A stretch of 64,000 nt of DNA from Candidatus Zhuqueibacterota bacterium. Its GTDB lineage: Bacteria; Zhuqueibacterota; Zhuqueibacteria; Residuimicrobiales; Krinioviventaceae. Under the pieces are notes generated by a model. That model saw nothing but the letters and a program-made list of their open reading frames with translations. It was not told the origin of the DNA and did not search any database. A program made the position numbers and the translations under genes. Positions within the stretch are counted from its first letter, which is position 1. The number at the start of each line of letters is the position of its first letter. Where the stretch lies: NCBI GenBank assembly GCA_016934825.1, contig JAFGSB010000140.1:1-64000 (forward strand), given 5' to 3'. This document shows, one piece after another, positions 5,145-13,006 of this stretch.

Positions 5145-6407
5145 ATGGAACATTACAGCATATTTTATCGTTTTGGTGTGGCATTAATTATCGGATTTCT
5201 CGTCGGATTACAACGTGAGTACGCCTTTAAGCATCAGGGAAAAGAACTGGCCGCGGGAGTACGCACTTTTTCTCTGATCAGCCTGATCGGCTGTACCGCG
5301 GCCATGATGACGTCTTTAACCGAATCTCCCCTGCCTTTTATTGCGATTATAAGTATATTAGGATTACTCGTTACCGTAAATTATTTCATCCAGGCCTGGA
5401 GGGGTGAATCGGGTCTGACTACGGAAGTTGCGGCTCTTATGACCGCTCTCGCCGGGGCGCTGGTGTACTGGAATAATATGGCGCTGGGCGTTGCCCTTGC
5501 GGTGACAACTACTATATTATTGTCCTTTAAACTGGAATTACATTCATTTGCCAGACATCTAACCAAACCGGACATATTTTCCACTCTTAAATTCGCCGTC
5601 ATTTCCGTGATCATATTACCGGTACTGCCAAACAAGGTCTACGGCCCCGAGCCATTTAATATTTTTAATCCATACAAAATCTGGCTCCTGATTGTATTTA
5701 TATCCGGTATCAGTTTTATCGGGTACATTCTCATAAAAATTATTGGTCCAAGAAAAGGGATCAGTTTAACCGGTTTATTGGGCGGACTTGCCTCGAGTAC
5801 CGCCGTTACATTAAGTTTCACCCAAAGAAGCCGGGACAATACAACTCTGGCAAAACCGTTCGCGCTGGCTATACTCATTGCCTGGACGGTCATGTTTGCC
5901 CGTGTTTTGATACTGGTCGCGGCGATTAACAGTTCCATGATGAAACTGTTATGGATCCCGTTAACGGCTTCAATGTTTGCCGGTTTAATCTATTGTTTTT
6001 ATCTTTATCGCGCACAGCACTATGACGCCGAAAAAGAACATGTCTCGTTTTCAAATCCTTTCGAACTGGGACCGGCCATTAAATTCGGTATTCTCTTCAC
6101 TCTCATTTTATTCGTTTCCAAAGCGGCCCAAATTTATATGGGAAGCATCGGGCTATATTTCGCGAGTATTGTAGCCGGTTTAGCCGATGTCGATGCCATT
6201 ACACTTTCCGTGGCGAAATTAAGCCAGGGATCGCAGGGCATTAGCCATATAATAGCGGTAAGAGCCGTTGTTTTTGCCTGTGTAGCCAATACATTCGTTA
6301 AGGGTGTAATTGTCCTCATCGGCAGCGACGCCGGACTCAAACGCGCCATACTTCCGGGTTTCCTCTTGATGATGGCAACATCACTTGTGGTGGCATTTTT
6401 AATATAA
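5145..6407 (+). CDS. MgtC/SapB-DUF4010 family membrane protein
   Basis: Polytopic membrane protein of 420 residues. Seen: an N-terminal MgtC-like part (FGVALIIGFLVGLQREY, then GVRTFSLISLIG) and a C-terminal DUF4010 part with ISGISFIGYILIK, GLLGGLASSTAVTLSF and the GLADVDAITLS motif. This two-part architecture is widespread; its transport activity is unproven, and Mg2+-related or amino-acid-related roles have been suggested for relatives. It sits between a parvulin (22 bases upstream) and a DUF523 gene (17 bases downstream), suggesting a short operon. The ribosome binding site is weak. Confidence 0.88.
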   Translation: MEHYSIFYRFGVALIIGFLVGLQREYAFKHQGKELAAGVRTFSLISLIGCTAAMMTSLTESPLPFIAIISILGLLVTVNYFIQAWRGESGLTTEVAALMTALAGALVYWNNMALGVALAVTTTILLSFKLELHSFARHLTKPDIFSTLKFAVISVIILPVLPNKVYGPEPFNIFNPYKIWLLIVFISGISFIGYILIKIIGPRKGISLTGLLGGLASSTAVTLSFTQRSRDNTTLAKPFALAILIAWTVMFARVLILVAAINSSMMKLLWIPLTASMFAGLIYCFYLYRAQHYDAEKEHVSFSNPFELGPAIKFGILFTLILFVSKAAQIYMGSIGLYFASIVAGLADVDAITLSVAKLSQGSQGISHIIAVRAVVFACVANTFVKGVIVLIGSDAGLKRAILPGFLLMMATSLVVAFLI

Positions 6408-6424
6408 AACTCCTGGAGTGTATA

Positions 6425-7375
6425 ATGCAAAATCGTATTAAGCTGGGTATCAGCACCTGCCTGTTAGGAGAAAATGTCCGTTATGACGGCGGACACAAAC
6501 TCGACAGGTATTTGCGGGATATATTGGGACAGTTTGTCGAATGGGTGCCTGTTTGCCCCGAAGTGGAGTGCGGTCTGTCGACACCCCGCGAAGCCATGCA
6601 TCTCATCGGGGATCCAGGTTCACCCAGGCTTGTTACAATCAAAACAGGCATTGACTATACGGAGCAAATGCTGTCCTGGGCCGGAAAACGCCTTGAACTT
6701 TTACAAAAAGAACAATTATGCGGTTTCATTTTCAAAACAAAGTCCCCCAGTTCGGGCATGCGGGATATCAAAATTTATAATAAAAAGGGAATGGCCGTTA
6801 ACAAAGGTTCGGGCTTATGGGCAAAATCTTTCATTGAATTTTTCCCATCTCTGCCGGTGGAAGATGAAGGCCGCCTGAACGACGCCGGTTTGCGTGAGAA
6901 CTTTATCGAAAGAATATTTGTTGTACACCGCTGGAATTCCTTTATCAACAACGACGGCTCGATAAAAGGGCTGGTGAATTTTCATACCGATCATAAATTG
7001 CTGATCATGGCCCATAGTCCCGCGAAACTGCGTGAATTGGGAACTCTGGTATCAAATCCGAACAACCTTGGTAAAAACGAAATCTTTAATTTATATTATG
7101 ATTTACTTATGAAAACGCTTTTATTAAAAGCAACGGTAAATAAAAACGTAAATGTATTACAGCATATCATGGGTTATTTTAAAAAACATCTGTCCCCTGA
7201 TGAAAAGCAGGAATTACTGGACATAATAAATAATTACCATCATGGTGTGGTGCCGTTAATCGTTCCTGTTGTATTGCTGCAACACTACACCCGTAAATAC
7301 AAAGATTCCTATTTAGCAAGACAATATTATCTCAATCCCCACCCCAAAGAACTCATGCTGAGAAATCATGTTTGA
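6425..7375 (+). CDS. DUF523 and DUF1722 (YbgA-like) protein
   Basis: Fusion of DUF523 (about residues 1-150; motifs GISTCLLGENVRYDGGHK, CPEVECGLSTPREAM, SPSSGMRDI) and DUF1722 (about 170-310; FHTDHKLLIMAHS, LIVPVVLLQHYTRKY). The same fusion is found in many bacteria, often near photolyase or nucleotide-repair genes. The conserved cysteines at the N-terminus suggest metal or thiol chemistry, but no reaction is established. It is preceded by CTGGAG. Its last 8 bases overlap a small downstream reading frame. Confidence 0.92.
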   Translation: MQNRIKLGISTCLLGENVRYDGGHKLDRYLRDILGQFVEWVPVCPEVECGLSTPREAMHLIGDPGSPRLVTIKTGIDYTEQMLSWAGKRLELLQKEQLCGFIFKTKSPSSGMRDIKIYNKKGMAVNKGSGLWAKSFIEFFPSLPVEDEGRLNDAGLRENFIERIFVVHRWNSFINNDGSIKGLVNFHTDHKLLIMAHSPAKLRELGTLVSNPNNLGKNEIFNLYYDLLMKTLLLKATVNKNVNVLQHIMGYFKKHLSPDEKQELLDIINNYHHGVVPLIVPVVLLQHYTRKYKDSYLARQYYLNPHPKELMLRNHV

Positions 7376-8757: not shown

Positions 8758-9030
8758 ATGAACAAGGCAGAATTGATCGACAAGGTGGCTGAAGTAACCA
8801 AAACCAAAAAAGAAGCAAAAGAAGTTGTAGAATCGGTTTTATCAGCTATCACCGATGCCCTGAAAAAGGGTGATACCGTTTCATTAATTGGGTTCGGGAC
8901 CTTTAAAGTCAACCATAAACCGGCGCGTATGGGAAGGAATCCACAGACCGGCCAAACGATTCAAATTGCTGCTAAAAAAGTCCCTAAATTTGTTCCTGGA
9001 AAAGCCTTAAAAGACGTTGTAAATAAATAA
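8758..9030 (+). CDS. HU/IHF family DNA-binding protein
   Basis: Histone-like nucleoid protein, 90 residues, acting as a dimer that bends DNA. Seen: the N-terminal helices ([20 protein letters not shown]), the [11 protein letters not shown] segment and the arm signature [13 protein letters not shown] with the intercalating Pro, then [12 protein letters not shown]. It is full length. The start at 8758 is set by the strong AAAGGAGGATAC site; an upstream in-frame ATG at 8728 would add an implausible tail. It is isolated, with its own long leader. Confidence 0.96.
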
Positions 9031-9120: not shown

Positions 9121-9230
9121 AATTTTGCTTTCCTCTGTTTTTTTACATATTATGAGTTTTTATTGAAAAATCATTTCCCATAACTCTTATATAATTCAAA
9201 AAAACGGACCGTTCCGTGAGTATTAAAAAA

Positions 9231-9539
9231 TTAACAGGGAGATACCCTTTCAAATCTCGCGACCAGATGGCCCCGCGACAGGAATTTCATGTAATCAATC
9301 ACAATTTGTCCATAATATCGTGTCATTTCTTCAACTCTGCTGTCCCAGATCAATTTTACCCCGGAAACATCTTTATGTCTGCCGACTTCAATATCTTTTT
9401 CGGACGCCTGAACCAGGCCTATACTGGGCCCGCCTCAGCCAAACCCCATAACTAAAATCCGGTAAATCAGGCTTGAAGACTTGTTCTCCTCAACAATTTT
9501 CTGGAATACTTTTTCCGCTTCCTTTGTAACCCTCAGCAT
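9231..9539 (-). CDS. HesB/IscA-like protein with an in-frame TGA (probable selenocysteine)
   Basis: A-type iron-sulfur/HesB-like fold, 102 residues if the TGA at 9437-9435 (codon 35) is read as selenocysteine. The reading frame runs open on both sides: MLRVTKEAEKVFQKI before it, then MGFG-U-GGPSIG around it, and IEVGRHKDVSGVKLIWD after it, to a TAA at 9233-9231. In A-type proteins a conserved Cys sits at this place, and a HesB-like family with Sec in a GFGUGGP motif is known (established knowledge). A GGAG site lies 5 bases before the ATG at 9539. A hairpin that fits bacterial SECIS rules lies just downstream of the TGA. It is convergent with HU. The usual C-terminal CxC pair of IscA is absent; the protein ends in Pro-Cys. 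The alternative is a nonsense-mutated gene, but the codon position argues against that. Confidence 0.82.
9406..9418 (-). promoter_or_regulatory. Candidate bacterial SECIS hairpin
   Basis: Reading the minus strand after the TGA: a 5-bp stem GCCTG / CAGGC with loop GTT. The apical loop begins with G, 22 bases downstream of the stop codon. A lower stem (GGGC 4-7 bases after the TGA with GTCC 30-33 bases after it) can extend it across an asymmetric internal loop. This fits the published bacterial SECIS requirements: loop 16-37 nt from UGA, and a G among the first two loop bases. Confidence 0.65.
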
Positions 9540-9728
9540 AAAATCTCCATCTTTATTTATTCACTGTGATTATCTGTAATAATATTTAGATGTATGAGGA
9601 GGGAATATTATTCAAAATTCTTGAAGGAAACTGTAAATATAAAAAATTTTTAGCCACTGATTTTCACAGATAGAACACGAATTTTCCTGGATAACCTTTA
9701 TATCTCTGTTTCTCTACCCGAGTCTGAA

Positions 9729-9767: not shown

Positions 9768-10109
9768 TTACTTATCAAGATATTTGTCTATATAAGTTTG
9801 AACTTTCTTATTCCATTTTGCTATATAAAGGTCTGGTTTTGGTGGTTTACCGTGACTATTTGGACTTGATTCCGGTGGCATATTTATTAACTTTTTTAAT
9901 TCATTAAGAAAAGAATCTTTAGATTTAATATATTCTGAGTTATAAAAATAACCATAAAAATAAAAATCAATTAAATTATTAAGTTTAATATCCTGTACTG
10001 TATCTACATCTTTATGGTCAAATAATAATCTATCAAGATATTTTCTAGCATCTTCACGCTTATATTTAAAGTGATTATTTATTTCGTCATAATCCCATTC
10101 TTTACACAT
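9768..10109 (-). CDS. Hypothetical protein beside the RAYT transposase
   Basis: 113 residues, lysine- and aromatic-rich, with no signal peptide or membrane segment (starts MCKEWDYDEINNHFKYKRED; a Tyr/Phe-rich middle YFYGYFYN). I do not recognise the family. A very good GAGGAGG site stands 6 bases before the ATG, so it is probably expressed. Codon use is much more AT-rich than in the neighbouring methyltransferase and aldolase genes. It lies between REP-like hairpins together with the transposase, 185 bases away on the same strand, and may have travelled with it. Confidence 0.65.
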   Translation of the reverse strand: MCKEWDYDEINNHFKYKREDARKYLDRLLFDHKDVDTVQDIKLNNLIDFYFYGYFYNSEYIKSKDSFLNELKKLINMPPESSPNSHGKPPKPDLYIAKWNKKVQTYIDKYLDK

Positions 10110-10234
10110 AATATTCCTCCTCTGTTAAGTGTGTTATTTTAAAAATACTGGATTACTTATTAACACTAAGATTGCCGATAAACTTGATTAAAAACTATTT
10201 TGTAATAGTTCATGTTTTTCAAACCATATTTCTA

Positions 10235-10265
10235 CCTTGTGCCGGGTCTCCGGCCCGGCACAAGG
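10235..10265. repeat. REP-like palindrome, left of RAYT
   Basis: Perfect 12-bp inverted repeat CCTTGTGCCGGG / CCCGGCACAAGG around the loop TCTCCGG. A second small hairpin CCCGGC-TCTG-CCGGG follows directly (10269-10282). The loop is the exact reverse complement of the loop in the copy on the other side of the transposase gene. Confidence 0.8.
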
Positions 10266-10293
10266 CAGCCCGGCTCTGCCGGGAAACTGACAA

Positions 10294-10827
10294 CTAACTG
10301 ATAATCTCAATAGGTAATAATCCTTTCCCGTCCATATAATCCTTGTAACTCGAATATCGCCAGTACGCGGGATCTTCTATATACCCTCTCTTCACCGGAT
10401 TATAATGTATATATTCCAACTTTTGATATAATACTTTTTCATTAAACATTGCCTGTGGATGATCATCCTCCTGCCAAACCTGATGTTCCTGATCTGTTTT
10501 GTATCTCTTTTTGTAATATTTAAATTGCGATAAAAGCCAGTTGTTTGAAGTTTCGCTACAATAATCAACAATTGTTCTCGCCGTATATGATTTGAATAAA
10601 CCAAATTCTTTTATCAAATGTTCACCGGAAGCGATGCCGTGAAAATGGTTCTCCATAAGAACGTAACCATGCAAAATAATACGTTTGTTGTTAATGAGAA
10701 ATAACAATGAATCCAAAATGATCTGCGCTATTTGCGGATTGCTGAAAATGGGCAGCCAGTTAACAACTGTACATGTAACAAAATAAGGATAATTATTATC
10801 ATATATTTTGTATCTGCTTCTTCCCAT
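10294..10827 (-). CDS. REP-associated tyrosine transposase (RAYT, Y1/HUH type)
   Basis: Single-strand DNA transposase of the IS200/RAYT family, 177 residues. Seen: the start MGRSRYKI, the strand YFVTCTVVNWLPIF, the HUH metal motif ENHFHGIA (His-x-His) near residue 70, the helix with LFKSYTAR, and the C-terminal IHYNPVKRGYIEDPAYWRYSSYKDY box that is typical of RAYTs. The start at 10827 is supported by an AGAGGAG site 8 bases upstream. It is flanked on both sides by palindromes with complementary loops, which are the expected substrates of this enzyme. The gene looks intact. Confidence 0.92.
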   Translation of the reverse strand: MGRSRYKIYDNNYPYFVTCTVVNWLPIFSNPQIAQIILDSLLFLINNKRIILHGYVLMENHFHGIASGEHLIKEFGLFKSYTARTIVDYCSETSNNWLLSQFKYYKKRYKTDQEHQVWQEDDHPQAMFNEKVLYQKLEYIHYNPVKRGYIEDPAYWRYSSYKDYMDGKGLLPIEIIS

Positions 10828-10867
10828 TTTATTCTCTCCTCTGATTCTCAACCCGAGGTTGAGATCT

Positions 10868-10897
10868 CACGCACCAGGCCGGAGACCTGGTGCGAGT
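10868..10897. repeat. REP-like palindrome, right of RAYT
   Basis: CGCACCAGG / CCTGGTGCG stem with the loop CCGGAGA, preceded by a small hairpin CTCAACC-CGA-GGTTGAG (10847-10863). The loop is the reverse complement of that at 10247-10253, so the two hairpins are oriented as mirror images around the transposase. Confidence 0.75.
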
Positions 10898-11256
10898 GTG
10901 AAAAAATGTTATCATATTTGAAAACATATTCAAACACAAAATGAACGTCAGTTTGATGTTTACTACCTAAAACTTTAAAAAATTATAATCCTAAACCTCT
11001 CCGCTCAGCGATTTACTTGCTTGAAAAAAATCCCTAAAACACAAAAAAGCCAGATTCTCCTCCCGATACACAATTGCTTATTCCACTATCTGTTTCGTAA
11101 GATTCCTGTTTGCAAGCCCCATGTTCAGATTGTTAACAAATAATAGGGAAATTATTATTTATTGGCAAGAAAAATTTTATTTTACGGAAAATTGTAATCC
11201 CCTGTTGACAAATTTCCATTTGTTTCGAGAAACAACCATAATCCGGCTTAACATTT
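10898..11256. other. Intergenic region, nothing further seen
   Basis: About 360 bases of AT-rich sequence between the RAYT unit and the methyltransferase gene. I see no reading frame with coding features and no clear repeat. Confidence 0.45.
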
Positions 11257-12117
11257 TTACTTTATTGCAACAATTATCCAGGAATGGGTATTATGCAGGA
11301 GTTTAGTATTGATATTATTATGACCAAATTGATAGTAACCCGGTTCAAGCCCGGATTTCAATTCTGCGCCGGTATCCTCAGGTAATACCGTCTCGGAGAG
11401 ATCAATTCTCTGGCTGATGATAACGCCTGTTTGCCCCGTTTTTAGCCTTTCTTTCCAGGTCAACCGGTTCTCACCAAAAGGAAGAAGCGCGTTTTCGAAG
11501 AGACAAAACGATTTAAAATTTGCCGCGAAAAGTTTTTTGATTTCATCAAAAGAAAAACCATGCTCGCCCAGCATTTCACTATTCGGCGTTCCAATCACGA
11601 TAATCCCTCCTTTGCGAGTGATCCTTTTGAGCTCCTTAATCGCCCTGTCTTCCTGTTGATACTCTTTGATATGTTCAAGCACCTCGCTTGAAATCGTCAC
11701 GTCAAAAGATGAATCTGCAAATGCCTTCAAATCGGTAATCCCCAGCTTTTTAAACTGGGCTATCCCTCCGTATCTGTGCCGGGCAAAACGTAAAGCATAC
11801 CCGGATATGTCACACCCGACTACCTTTTCTGCCCCGGCCTGCGAGAGTATTTCACATCCATAGCCGCTGCCGCAGCCAACGTCCACGACCGATTTGCCCC
11901 GGACAAATTGCGTAGCGAAATGGTAAAACTTGCGATGATTAAGATAATTGTTCAAATCGTTTTTCTGCGCCTGCCGCTTCCTTCCAAAGCGGGTATATAC
12001 CCATTGTCCGGGATAAACACGAACATAGTCCTCAAAATAGAAACGCCGAGAGACTCTGCCGATAAAATGAGTAACCCGTATGAACATGTCTTTTATAAAA
12101 GGTCTTAAGGAAAGCAT
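11257..12117 (-). CDS. Class I SAM-dependent methyltransferase
   Basis: 286 residues with a Rossmann-type methyltransferase core. Seen: motif I VVDVGCGSGYG (residues about 77-87) for SAM binding, the acidic end of strand 2 (VVGCDIS), the post-I SSFDVTISSEVLEHI strand with the common LEHI box, and GGIIVIGTPN. It resembles Methyltransf_11 proteins acting on sugars, quinones or small molecules. The basic N-terminal extension (RRFYFEDYVRVYPGQW) is seen in envelope-polysaccharide methyltransferases, but the substrate is not determinable. No clear ribosome binding site precedes the ATG, so the start is uncertain. It stands alone between the RAYT unit and deoC. Confidence 0.85.
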   Translation of the reverse strand: MLSLRPFIKDMFIRVTHFIGRVSRRFYFEDYVRVYPGQWVYTRFGRKRQAQKNDLNNYLNHRKFYHFATQFVRGKSVVDVGCGSGYGCEILSQAGAEKVVGCDISGYALRFARHRYGGIAQFKKLGITDLKAFADSSFDVTISSEVLEHIKEYQQEDRAIKELKRITRKGGIIVIGTPNSEMLGEHGFSFDEIKKLFAANFKSFCLFENALLPFGENRLTWKERLKTGQTGVIISQRIDLSETVLPEDTGAELKSGLEPGYYQFGHNNINTKLLHNTHSWIIVAIK

Positions 12118-12259: not shown

Positions 12260-13006
12260 CTACACCCCCCTCACTATCGCCACGCTGTTACTGGTGCCGA
12301 TACGGTTCGCTCCGGCCCTGATCATGGCCTCCACGGTTTGCCGGTCGCGGATGCCGCCGGCCGCTTTAACGCCCATACTGTCGCCGACGACCTTGCGCAT
12401 CAGCGCCACATCTTCGATCTTTGCCCCGGCCTTGCTGAACCCGGTTGAGGTTTTTACAAAATGCGCGCCCGCCTGTTTGGCGATCACACATGCGGCGACT
12501 TTTTCCTCGTCGGTCAGCAGGCAGGTCTCGATGATTACCTTGACGTGCGCGGGATTTGCCGCGTCGACCACCCGTTTGATATCATTATGCACAAACTCCA
12601 GATCCCCGGACTTGAATTTCCCGACGTTCAGCACCATATCGATCTCCCGGGCGCCGTCCGATATCGCGCGTCTCGTCTCTTCCTCTTTCAGACAGGAAGT
12701 ATTCGCCCCCAGCGGAAAGCCGACCACCGAACATACCATTACATCCCCGCCGTACAACTGTTCCGACGCCGTCCTTACCCAGCAGGGATTTACACACACG
12801 GCGACAAATCCGTACTGTCTGGCCTCGTTGCATAATTGAATAATATTATCCCGTGTGGCGTCGGATTTTAAAATAGTATGATCGATTTTTCCGGCCAGAT
12901 CATCGCCGTTTTGGATTGAAAGCGGATTTTGTCCGCCGCTCGGTGATTTTCCGGTCACTTCGGTAATCACTTTATCTATAATTCTGTCAATTTCATTTTC
13001 CTGCAT
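12260..13006 (-). CDS. deoC: Deoxyribose-phosphate aldolase with N-terminal amphipathic extension
   Basis: Class I aldolase: 2-deoxyribose 5-phosphate to glyceraldehyde 3-phosphate plus acetaldehyde. Seen: catalytic Asp123 (EIDMVLNVG), Schiff-base Lys185 (HFVKTSTGF), Lys214 (KAAGGIRD) and the phosphate loop IGTSN. The core begins near residue 36. Residues 1-20 (MQENEIDRIIDKVITEVTGK) form a heptad-like amphipathic helix with Ile/Val at 6, 9, 10, 13, 14 and 17, followed by a Ser/Gly/Pro linker. That is the layout of microcompartment encapsulation peptides seen on some DeoC proteins. The start is supported by AGGA upstream. It lies 16 bases after the phosphohexomutase gene on the same strand, so they are likely one transcript. 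Confidence 0.94.
   Translation of the reverse strand: MQENEIDRIIDKVITEVTGKSPSGGQNPLSIQNGDDLAGKIDHTILKSDATRDNIIQLCNEARQYGFVAVCVNPCWVRTASEQLYGGDVMVCSVVGFPLGANTSCLKEEETRRAISDGAREIDMVLNVGKFKSGDLEFVHNDIKRVVDAANPAHVKVIIETCLLTDEEKVAACVIAKQAGAHFVKTSTGFSKAGAKIEDVALMRKVVGDSMGVKAAGGIRDRQTVEAMIRAGANRIGTSNSVAIVRGV

Follow-up and report, generated by a model that had tools for sequence, protein, structure and literature searches.

Does a short minus-strand frame that is interrupted by a TGA encode a selenoprotein and, if so, of what kind? The frame lies in a stretch of 64,000 nucleotides, which was analysed at its full length and is called the window here. A sequence-only reading had proposed a HesB-like gene at 9539-9231, giving 102 residues when the TGA at codon 35 is read through, and had held that ORF callers would split it at that codon. 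The coordinates and numbers were confirmed, and under translation table 11 the frame is indeed broken at the TGA. In our judgement the gene very probably encodes a 102-residue selenoprotein with the IscA/SufA fold, in which UGA codon 35 would be read as selenocysteine (Sec) via SelB. The conservation of the frame and of its TGA, the complete Sec machinery and the kinship to A-type carriers in fold and sequence were each computed, and are taken up below together with the explanations that compete with this reading.

The reading frame and its in-frame TGA

The features of the locus and of related loci are collected in Table 1. Besides these, an antisense ORF of 79 aa (window 9216-9455, plus strand) overlaps most of the selenoprotein gene and appears to be a mere side effect of the coding strand.

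Table 1. Features at the selenoprotein locus, at two homologous loci and at selD. Positions refer to the window unless a locus is named.
Feature	Position	Strand	Remarks
HesB/IscA-like selenoprotein CDS	9231..9539	-	102 aa, ATG start, TAA stop, TGA read through
In-frame TGA, codon 35	9435..9437	-	predicted selenocysteine, context G-U-G-G-P
Shine-Dalgarno-like GGAG	9545..9548	-	five bases 5' of the ATG; read from the sequence
Putative bacterial SECIS hairpin GCCUG-GUU-CAGGC	9406..9418	-	loop starts with G
HU-type DNA-binding protein gene (PF00216)	8758..9030	+	convergent neighbour
DeoC-family aldolase gene	12260..13006	-	upstream, same strand as the selenoprotein gene
Three larger ORFs between DeoC and the selenoprotein gene	9768-12117	-	not at that place in G003
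Divergent ORF near homologue	L020 1-1239 (locus coordinates)	-	starts with CPFCGCGC motif
Divergent ORF near homologue	L021 3022-3288 (locus coordinates)	+	starts with CPFCGCGC motif
selD	L026 1399-2448	-	codon 19 is an in-frame TGA, within CAGUASK; second selenoprotein gene; stable hairpin downstream

A protein search of the phylum detected the gene in 10 of 82 genomes, own genome included, spread over four families. Its distribution is patchy, with the gene present in two of the ten genomes of its own family. Each of the ten genes has one single TGA inside the matched part, and this TGA falls in the same alignment column in all of them. Since the query and its nine homologues share this column while the nine are 29-49% identical to the query, the frame is conserved beyond chance. 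Two extra hits of the alignment search that have no internal stop (G072 and G073) coincide with places matched by PF01521 and were left out; likewise, L038 is a canonical carrier by its translation (CGCG) and was left out of the count.

Purifying selection downstream of the TGA was observed in two congeneric homologue pairs, with dN 0.02 and dS 0.45 over 66 codons between L017 and L018, and dN 0.06 and dS 1.0 over 68 codons between L021 and L022. The query and its congener L016 gave dN 0.45 and dS 1.03 over the part after the TGA, which indicates mild constraint and is a weaker result than in the other two pairs. These data bear on the possibility that the locus is a pseudogene or contains a sequencing error, the TGA being a real or a false nonsense codon in an ordinary A-type carrier gene. 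Such a lesion would account for a frame that is broken under table 11 and for scores that lie below every family cut-off, and TGA is also the stop of seven of the 39 window ORFs of at least 200 aa; however, it is hard to reconcile with an identical TGA in all ten sequences, from ten assemblies and four families, and with the selection that acts downstream of it in two pairs. On the conserved TGA and the selection after it we rejected the pseudogene, and we consider a lesion of either sort extremely improbable.

The sequence-only reading had also named a residue other than Cys or Sec at this column in homologues as a reason to abandon the proposal. What the column holds is TGA in all ten sequences and an aligned Cys in seven canonical A-type carriers. 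Pattern scans of the genome contigs and the alignment search of the phylum yielded no orthologue of the branch in a Cys form, so that the Sec/Cys exchange is visible only in comparison with distant carriers. The two scans of the contigs returned 131 and 27 pattern matches, among which tblastn revealed no relative; the second pattern has a Cys codon where the TGA stands and is therefore blind to Sec forms.

The genes differ in how they end. The stop codon is TAA in the query and L016 and TAG in L019, and in the seven others (L017, L018, L020-L024) a second TGA directly follows the terminal Cys or Cys-Cys. The frames that follow this second TGA do not resemble one another, and we therefore read it as the stop; as an alternative to a stop, it may encode a second, C-terminal Sec in those seven genes.

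The surroundings of the gene were compared with those in a congener. In that genome (G003) the order is DeoC, selenoprotein gene and HU, with HU convergent and a gap of 197 bases from DeoC to the gene; its DeoC and HU were named by the likeness of their translations to those of the window's genes, which have Pfam matches. The window keeps the same order, but about 2.7 kb with the three larger minus-strand ORFs separates DeoC from the gene. One of these ORFs has a methyltransferase domain, one encodes 185 aa without a Pfam match and one encodes 113 aa, also without a match; the motifs of the 185-aa ORF are presumably those of REP-associated transposases. Near two homologues lies a divergent ORF that starts with CPFCGCGC, a motif resembling the one in molybdopterin oxidoreductases, formate dehydrogenase among them, and in L021 another ORF stands between it and the selenoprotein gene. 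At window 5145-7375, an MgtC-DUF4010 protein is followed by a 2-thiouracil desulfurase-DUF1722 protein.

Selenocysteine machinery and the candidate SECIS hairpin

A Sec codon calls on selA, selB, selD and tRNA-Sec, and the absence of these genes had been set out in advance as an argument against a selenoprotein. All four were found in the genome, each over its cut-off: tRNA-Sec at 64.8 bits against a cut-off of 47, and identified by ARAGORN as tRNA-SeC(tca); selA at 575.8 bits; selB at 347.4 bits; and selD at 371.1 bits. A second tRNA-Sec match over the cut-off, at 48.5 bits, is a tRNA-Leu by ARAGORN. The searches for tRNA-Sec, selB and selD give matches at E <= 0.001 in all 14 control genomes, and we therefore relied on the curated cut-offs, which were passed in 5, 2 and 2 of the 14 controls, respectively, and on ARAGORN. 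Concerning selA, all ten genomes that carry the gene have it over cut-off (P 0.06); as this is the case in 63 of the 82 genomes of the phylum overall, the association with selA alone is not significant. The codon 19 TGA of selD (Table 1) lies at what we take to be the catalytic Cys/Sec site of that protein. Two genes of this genome, selD being the second, thus point to UGA being read as Sec.

The stem of the candidate SECIS hairpin pairs 9418-9414 with 9410-9406 around the loop at 9413-9411, and begins 16 nt, with its loop 21 nt, after the TGA. The bacterial SECIS model described in PMC13188914 asks for a G at loop position one or two, a distance of 16-37 nt between UGA and loop and an energy of at most -7.5 kcal/mol. 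Of the earlier proposal that the hairpin follows these rules, the stem 16 nt after the TGA, the loop with G in first place and the spacing stood, but the local fold energy, -7.1 kcal/mol, just misses the limit. When the 22-nt stretch was shuffled, 7 of 200 shuffles folded at least as well. Across the window, an equal or better rule-conforming contiguous stem follows 86 of 2323 TGAs (both strands, the query's own included), a comparison based on the bare stem energy of the query hairpin, -5.5. Taken alone, the hairpin thus exceeds chance only modestly.

The other sequences of the branch give a mixed picture. Three of the ten sequences (L016, L020 and, at another place, L019) have a contiguous stem that obeys the rules with an energy of -7.5 or lower, and for L017 and L018 the values are no better than -2.2 and -2.4. 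In the most stable fold of the first 43 nt the UGA is itself paired, and RNAalifold returned no consensus structure for the ten 48-nt stretches. In a seven-pair stem laid over the ten sequences, 81.4% of the cells hold standard pairs, and in three of the pairs both sides have changed. Its covariation score was reached by 6 of 500 shuffles, its number of cells changed on both sides by 7, its number of pairs changed by 64 and its pair types by 378, figures to be read with the tool's caveat that related sequences may beat shuffles without any structure. Sliding the partner strand lowers every covariation measure except pair types, where a tie occurs at -1. Broken pairs affect the fourth and the closing pair in three sequences each, and the two outer pairs in five and two. 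The Leu codon within the stem is CTG in all ten sequences, compared with 447 of the 1612 Leu codons in the window's long ORFs. In Rfam, three matches to 9200-9560 came up at E <= 10, all far below gathering and none of them to a SECIS family. Altogether, we regard the hairpin at 9418-9406 as a probable SECIS element, plausible but not strong.

A hairpin that is weak by the published rules would suit another decoding of the UGA, through Trp or Cys suppression or through leaky readthrough, in which case the protein would not be a selenoprotein. Yet all parts of the Sec machinery are encoded in the genome, selD is a further gene interrupted by an in-frame TGA, and the column is Cys in the seven aligned canonical carriers, which suits Sec. 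Nor do the window's long ORFs give any sign of a general reassignment of TGA, as those that end at TGA extend in frame by just 0-18 codons beyond it; general reassignment was rejected on this ground. Other decoding of codon 35 is, in our view, very unlikely.

Fold, cysteine pattern and proposed function

Standard family models respond to the protein only faintly. For the query, Pfam gave no match at E <= 1, so none over the PF01521 gathering score, and NCBIfam gave four matches, all below cut-off and all in the IscA/HesB group, the best being NF038090 with 27.2 bits against a cut-off of 85; the score with TIGR01911 was 19.7 bits against 66.35. The nine relatives attain at most 39 bits with NF038090 and 25.6 bits with TIGR01911. 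Two of them (L020 and L021) have no NCBIfam match at E <= 0.01, L017 and L018 score best in NCBIfam with TIGR00049, a general model rather than a selenoprotein one, and for L023 there is a tie. PF01521 matches three of the ten sequences at E <= 0.1, with a best value of 0.015. Over the ten sequences Pfam also returned DUF7923 for two (best E 0.0012) and HNH_2 for one. The divergence of the sequence is too great for the present family models to give it a name. Since a caller that stops at TGA also splits the gene, annotation will probably overlook it in the 10 genomes.

An AlphaFold model, built from the ten sequences with Cys at position 35, has a mean pLDDT of 89.3 and a pTM of 0.80, and matches E. 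coli SufA with Z 10.4 over 90 residues at 2.4 A. IscA comes at Z 9.6-9.8 and DsrR at Z 9.8; below the nine best rows the score falls to 2.8. Foldseek gave nine matches at E <= 0.001, with HI1723, IscA and SufA in the top ranks and AQ_1857 and one integrative model besides. The modelled fold is that of an A-type Fe-S carrier (IscA/SufA). Two weak phmmer matches (E 0.025 and 0.36) put the Sec residue opposite the first conserved cysteine of A-type carriers, and a profile comparison with seven canonical carriers of the phylum (E 1.4e-7, probability 94%) likewise places the Sec column on their Cys.

The cysteine pattern departs from that of the carriers at the C terminus. A-type carriers are defined by three cysteines, with a C-terminal Cys-Gly-Cys, and this Cys-Gly-Cys is present in all seven canonical carriers aligned. 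The query has Sec35 and a single C-terminal Cys102 in place of these three cysteines; Cys102 is invariant in the ten sequences, and four homologues (L020, L021, L022 and L024) have a C-terminal Cys-Cys.

For the selenoprotein we infer actual Sec insertion, a functional SECIS element and a cluster-carrying or redox role. In the proposed mechanism, SelB would deliver Sec-tRNA(Sec) to UGA codon 35, probably with help from the hairpin that starts 16 nt further on, and the ribosome would continue past the UGA to the TAA at 9231. Sec35 would replace the first conserved cysteine of A-type carriers, with Cys102 as its likely second ligand or redox partner. Together, the two residues may form a site for iron or an Fe-S cluster, or a selenol-thiol redox pair, that serves target proteins.

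Whether the protein replaces canonical carriers was approached through their occurrence in the phylum. A PF01521 carrier is absent at E <= 0.001 from eight of the ten genomes that have the gene, own genome included, and from 45 of the 72 others. This absence says little about carrier replacement, as so many of the others also go without and as the model matches in only 9 of the 14 control genomes. For the phylum as a whole, 53 of 82 genomes lack a PF01521 A-type carrier at E <= 0.001, some of these genomes being incomplete, and loss or divergence of the canonical carrier seems to be common. SufBD is present in the own genome. Where a PF01521 carrier was not found, the selenoprotein might be the sole A-type carrier, working with the SUF system and holding iron or an Fe-S cluster by its selenolate, although we think this unlikely.

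The protein could also be a selenoprotein that is no Fe-S carrier at all, namely one that puts an IscA-like scaffold to use for selenol-based redox chemistry. The reduction of the carriers' C-terminal Cys-Gly-Cys to one Cys or Cys-Cys fits such a role, and the PF01521 counts show no obvious replacement of carriers. For the methanogen HesB-like selenoprotein, PMC11097638 calls the function not clear and states, as an unpublished observation, that the mutant still fixes nitrogen. In contrast, the closest solved structures are Fe-S carriers, and the Sec column corresponds to the carriers' first conserved cysteine. We regard the redox role as a serious, if less favoured, possibility.

Comparison with known HesB-like selenoproteins

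HesB-like selenoproteins are a known group: they go back to the early surveys, with 11 listed in PMC1794560 and 90 in 86 organisms in PMC5029168. UxGP appears as the motif of the HesB-like protein in a list within PMC13188914. In the query, Sec residue 35 sits in MGFG-U-GGP, so that U35-G-G-P38 forms a UxGP motif whose Sec occupies the position of the HesB cysteine. The placement of Sec within MGFG-x-GGP as in HesB-like selenoproteins, which the sequence-only reading had asserted, holds. Of its wider assignment to that family, the motif, the Sec site and the kinship to A-type carriers were borne out, but all ten sequences miss the cut-offs of both TIGR01911 and NF038090. A search of the open-access literature brought up no paper that we recognised as treating this branch.

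Three systems can be set beside it. With TIGR01911 (HesB_rel_seleno, UxGP) the query shares a similar size, Sec at the first HesB/IscA cysteine column, U-x-G-P and a weak profile match over residues 5 to 57, whereas none of the 82 genomes of the phylum is over that model's cut-off and the whole-genome search at E <= 0.001 detects one of the ten genes (that of G013). NF038090 (IscA_HesB_Se) is the query's best sequence match, over residues 1-85, and matches eight of the ten sequences at E <= 0.01, but these eight score 16-39 bits against the cut-off of 85. The canonical carriers IscA, SufA and ErpA (PF01521, TIGR00049) share the fold, and their first conserved Cys corresponds to the Sec column; TIGR00049 matches seven of the ten sequences, below cut-off. 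They differ from the query branch in that the branch has Sec for this Cys and a C-terminal Cys-Gly-Cys shrunk to Cys or Cys-Cys.

The ten sequences could form the basis of a new family model. As the function of the methanogen HesB-like selenoprotein is called not clear (PMC11097638), and as most genomes with the branch yielded no canonical carrier, it offers a useful test case. Since it shares the motif and the Sec site of HesB-like selenoproteins and fails both of their models, we regard it as a divergent branch within a known type of protein, outside TIGR01911 and NF038090 as they are modelled now; the HesB-like selenoproteins thereby extend to sequences that score far below the present model cut-offs.
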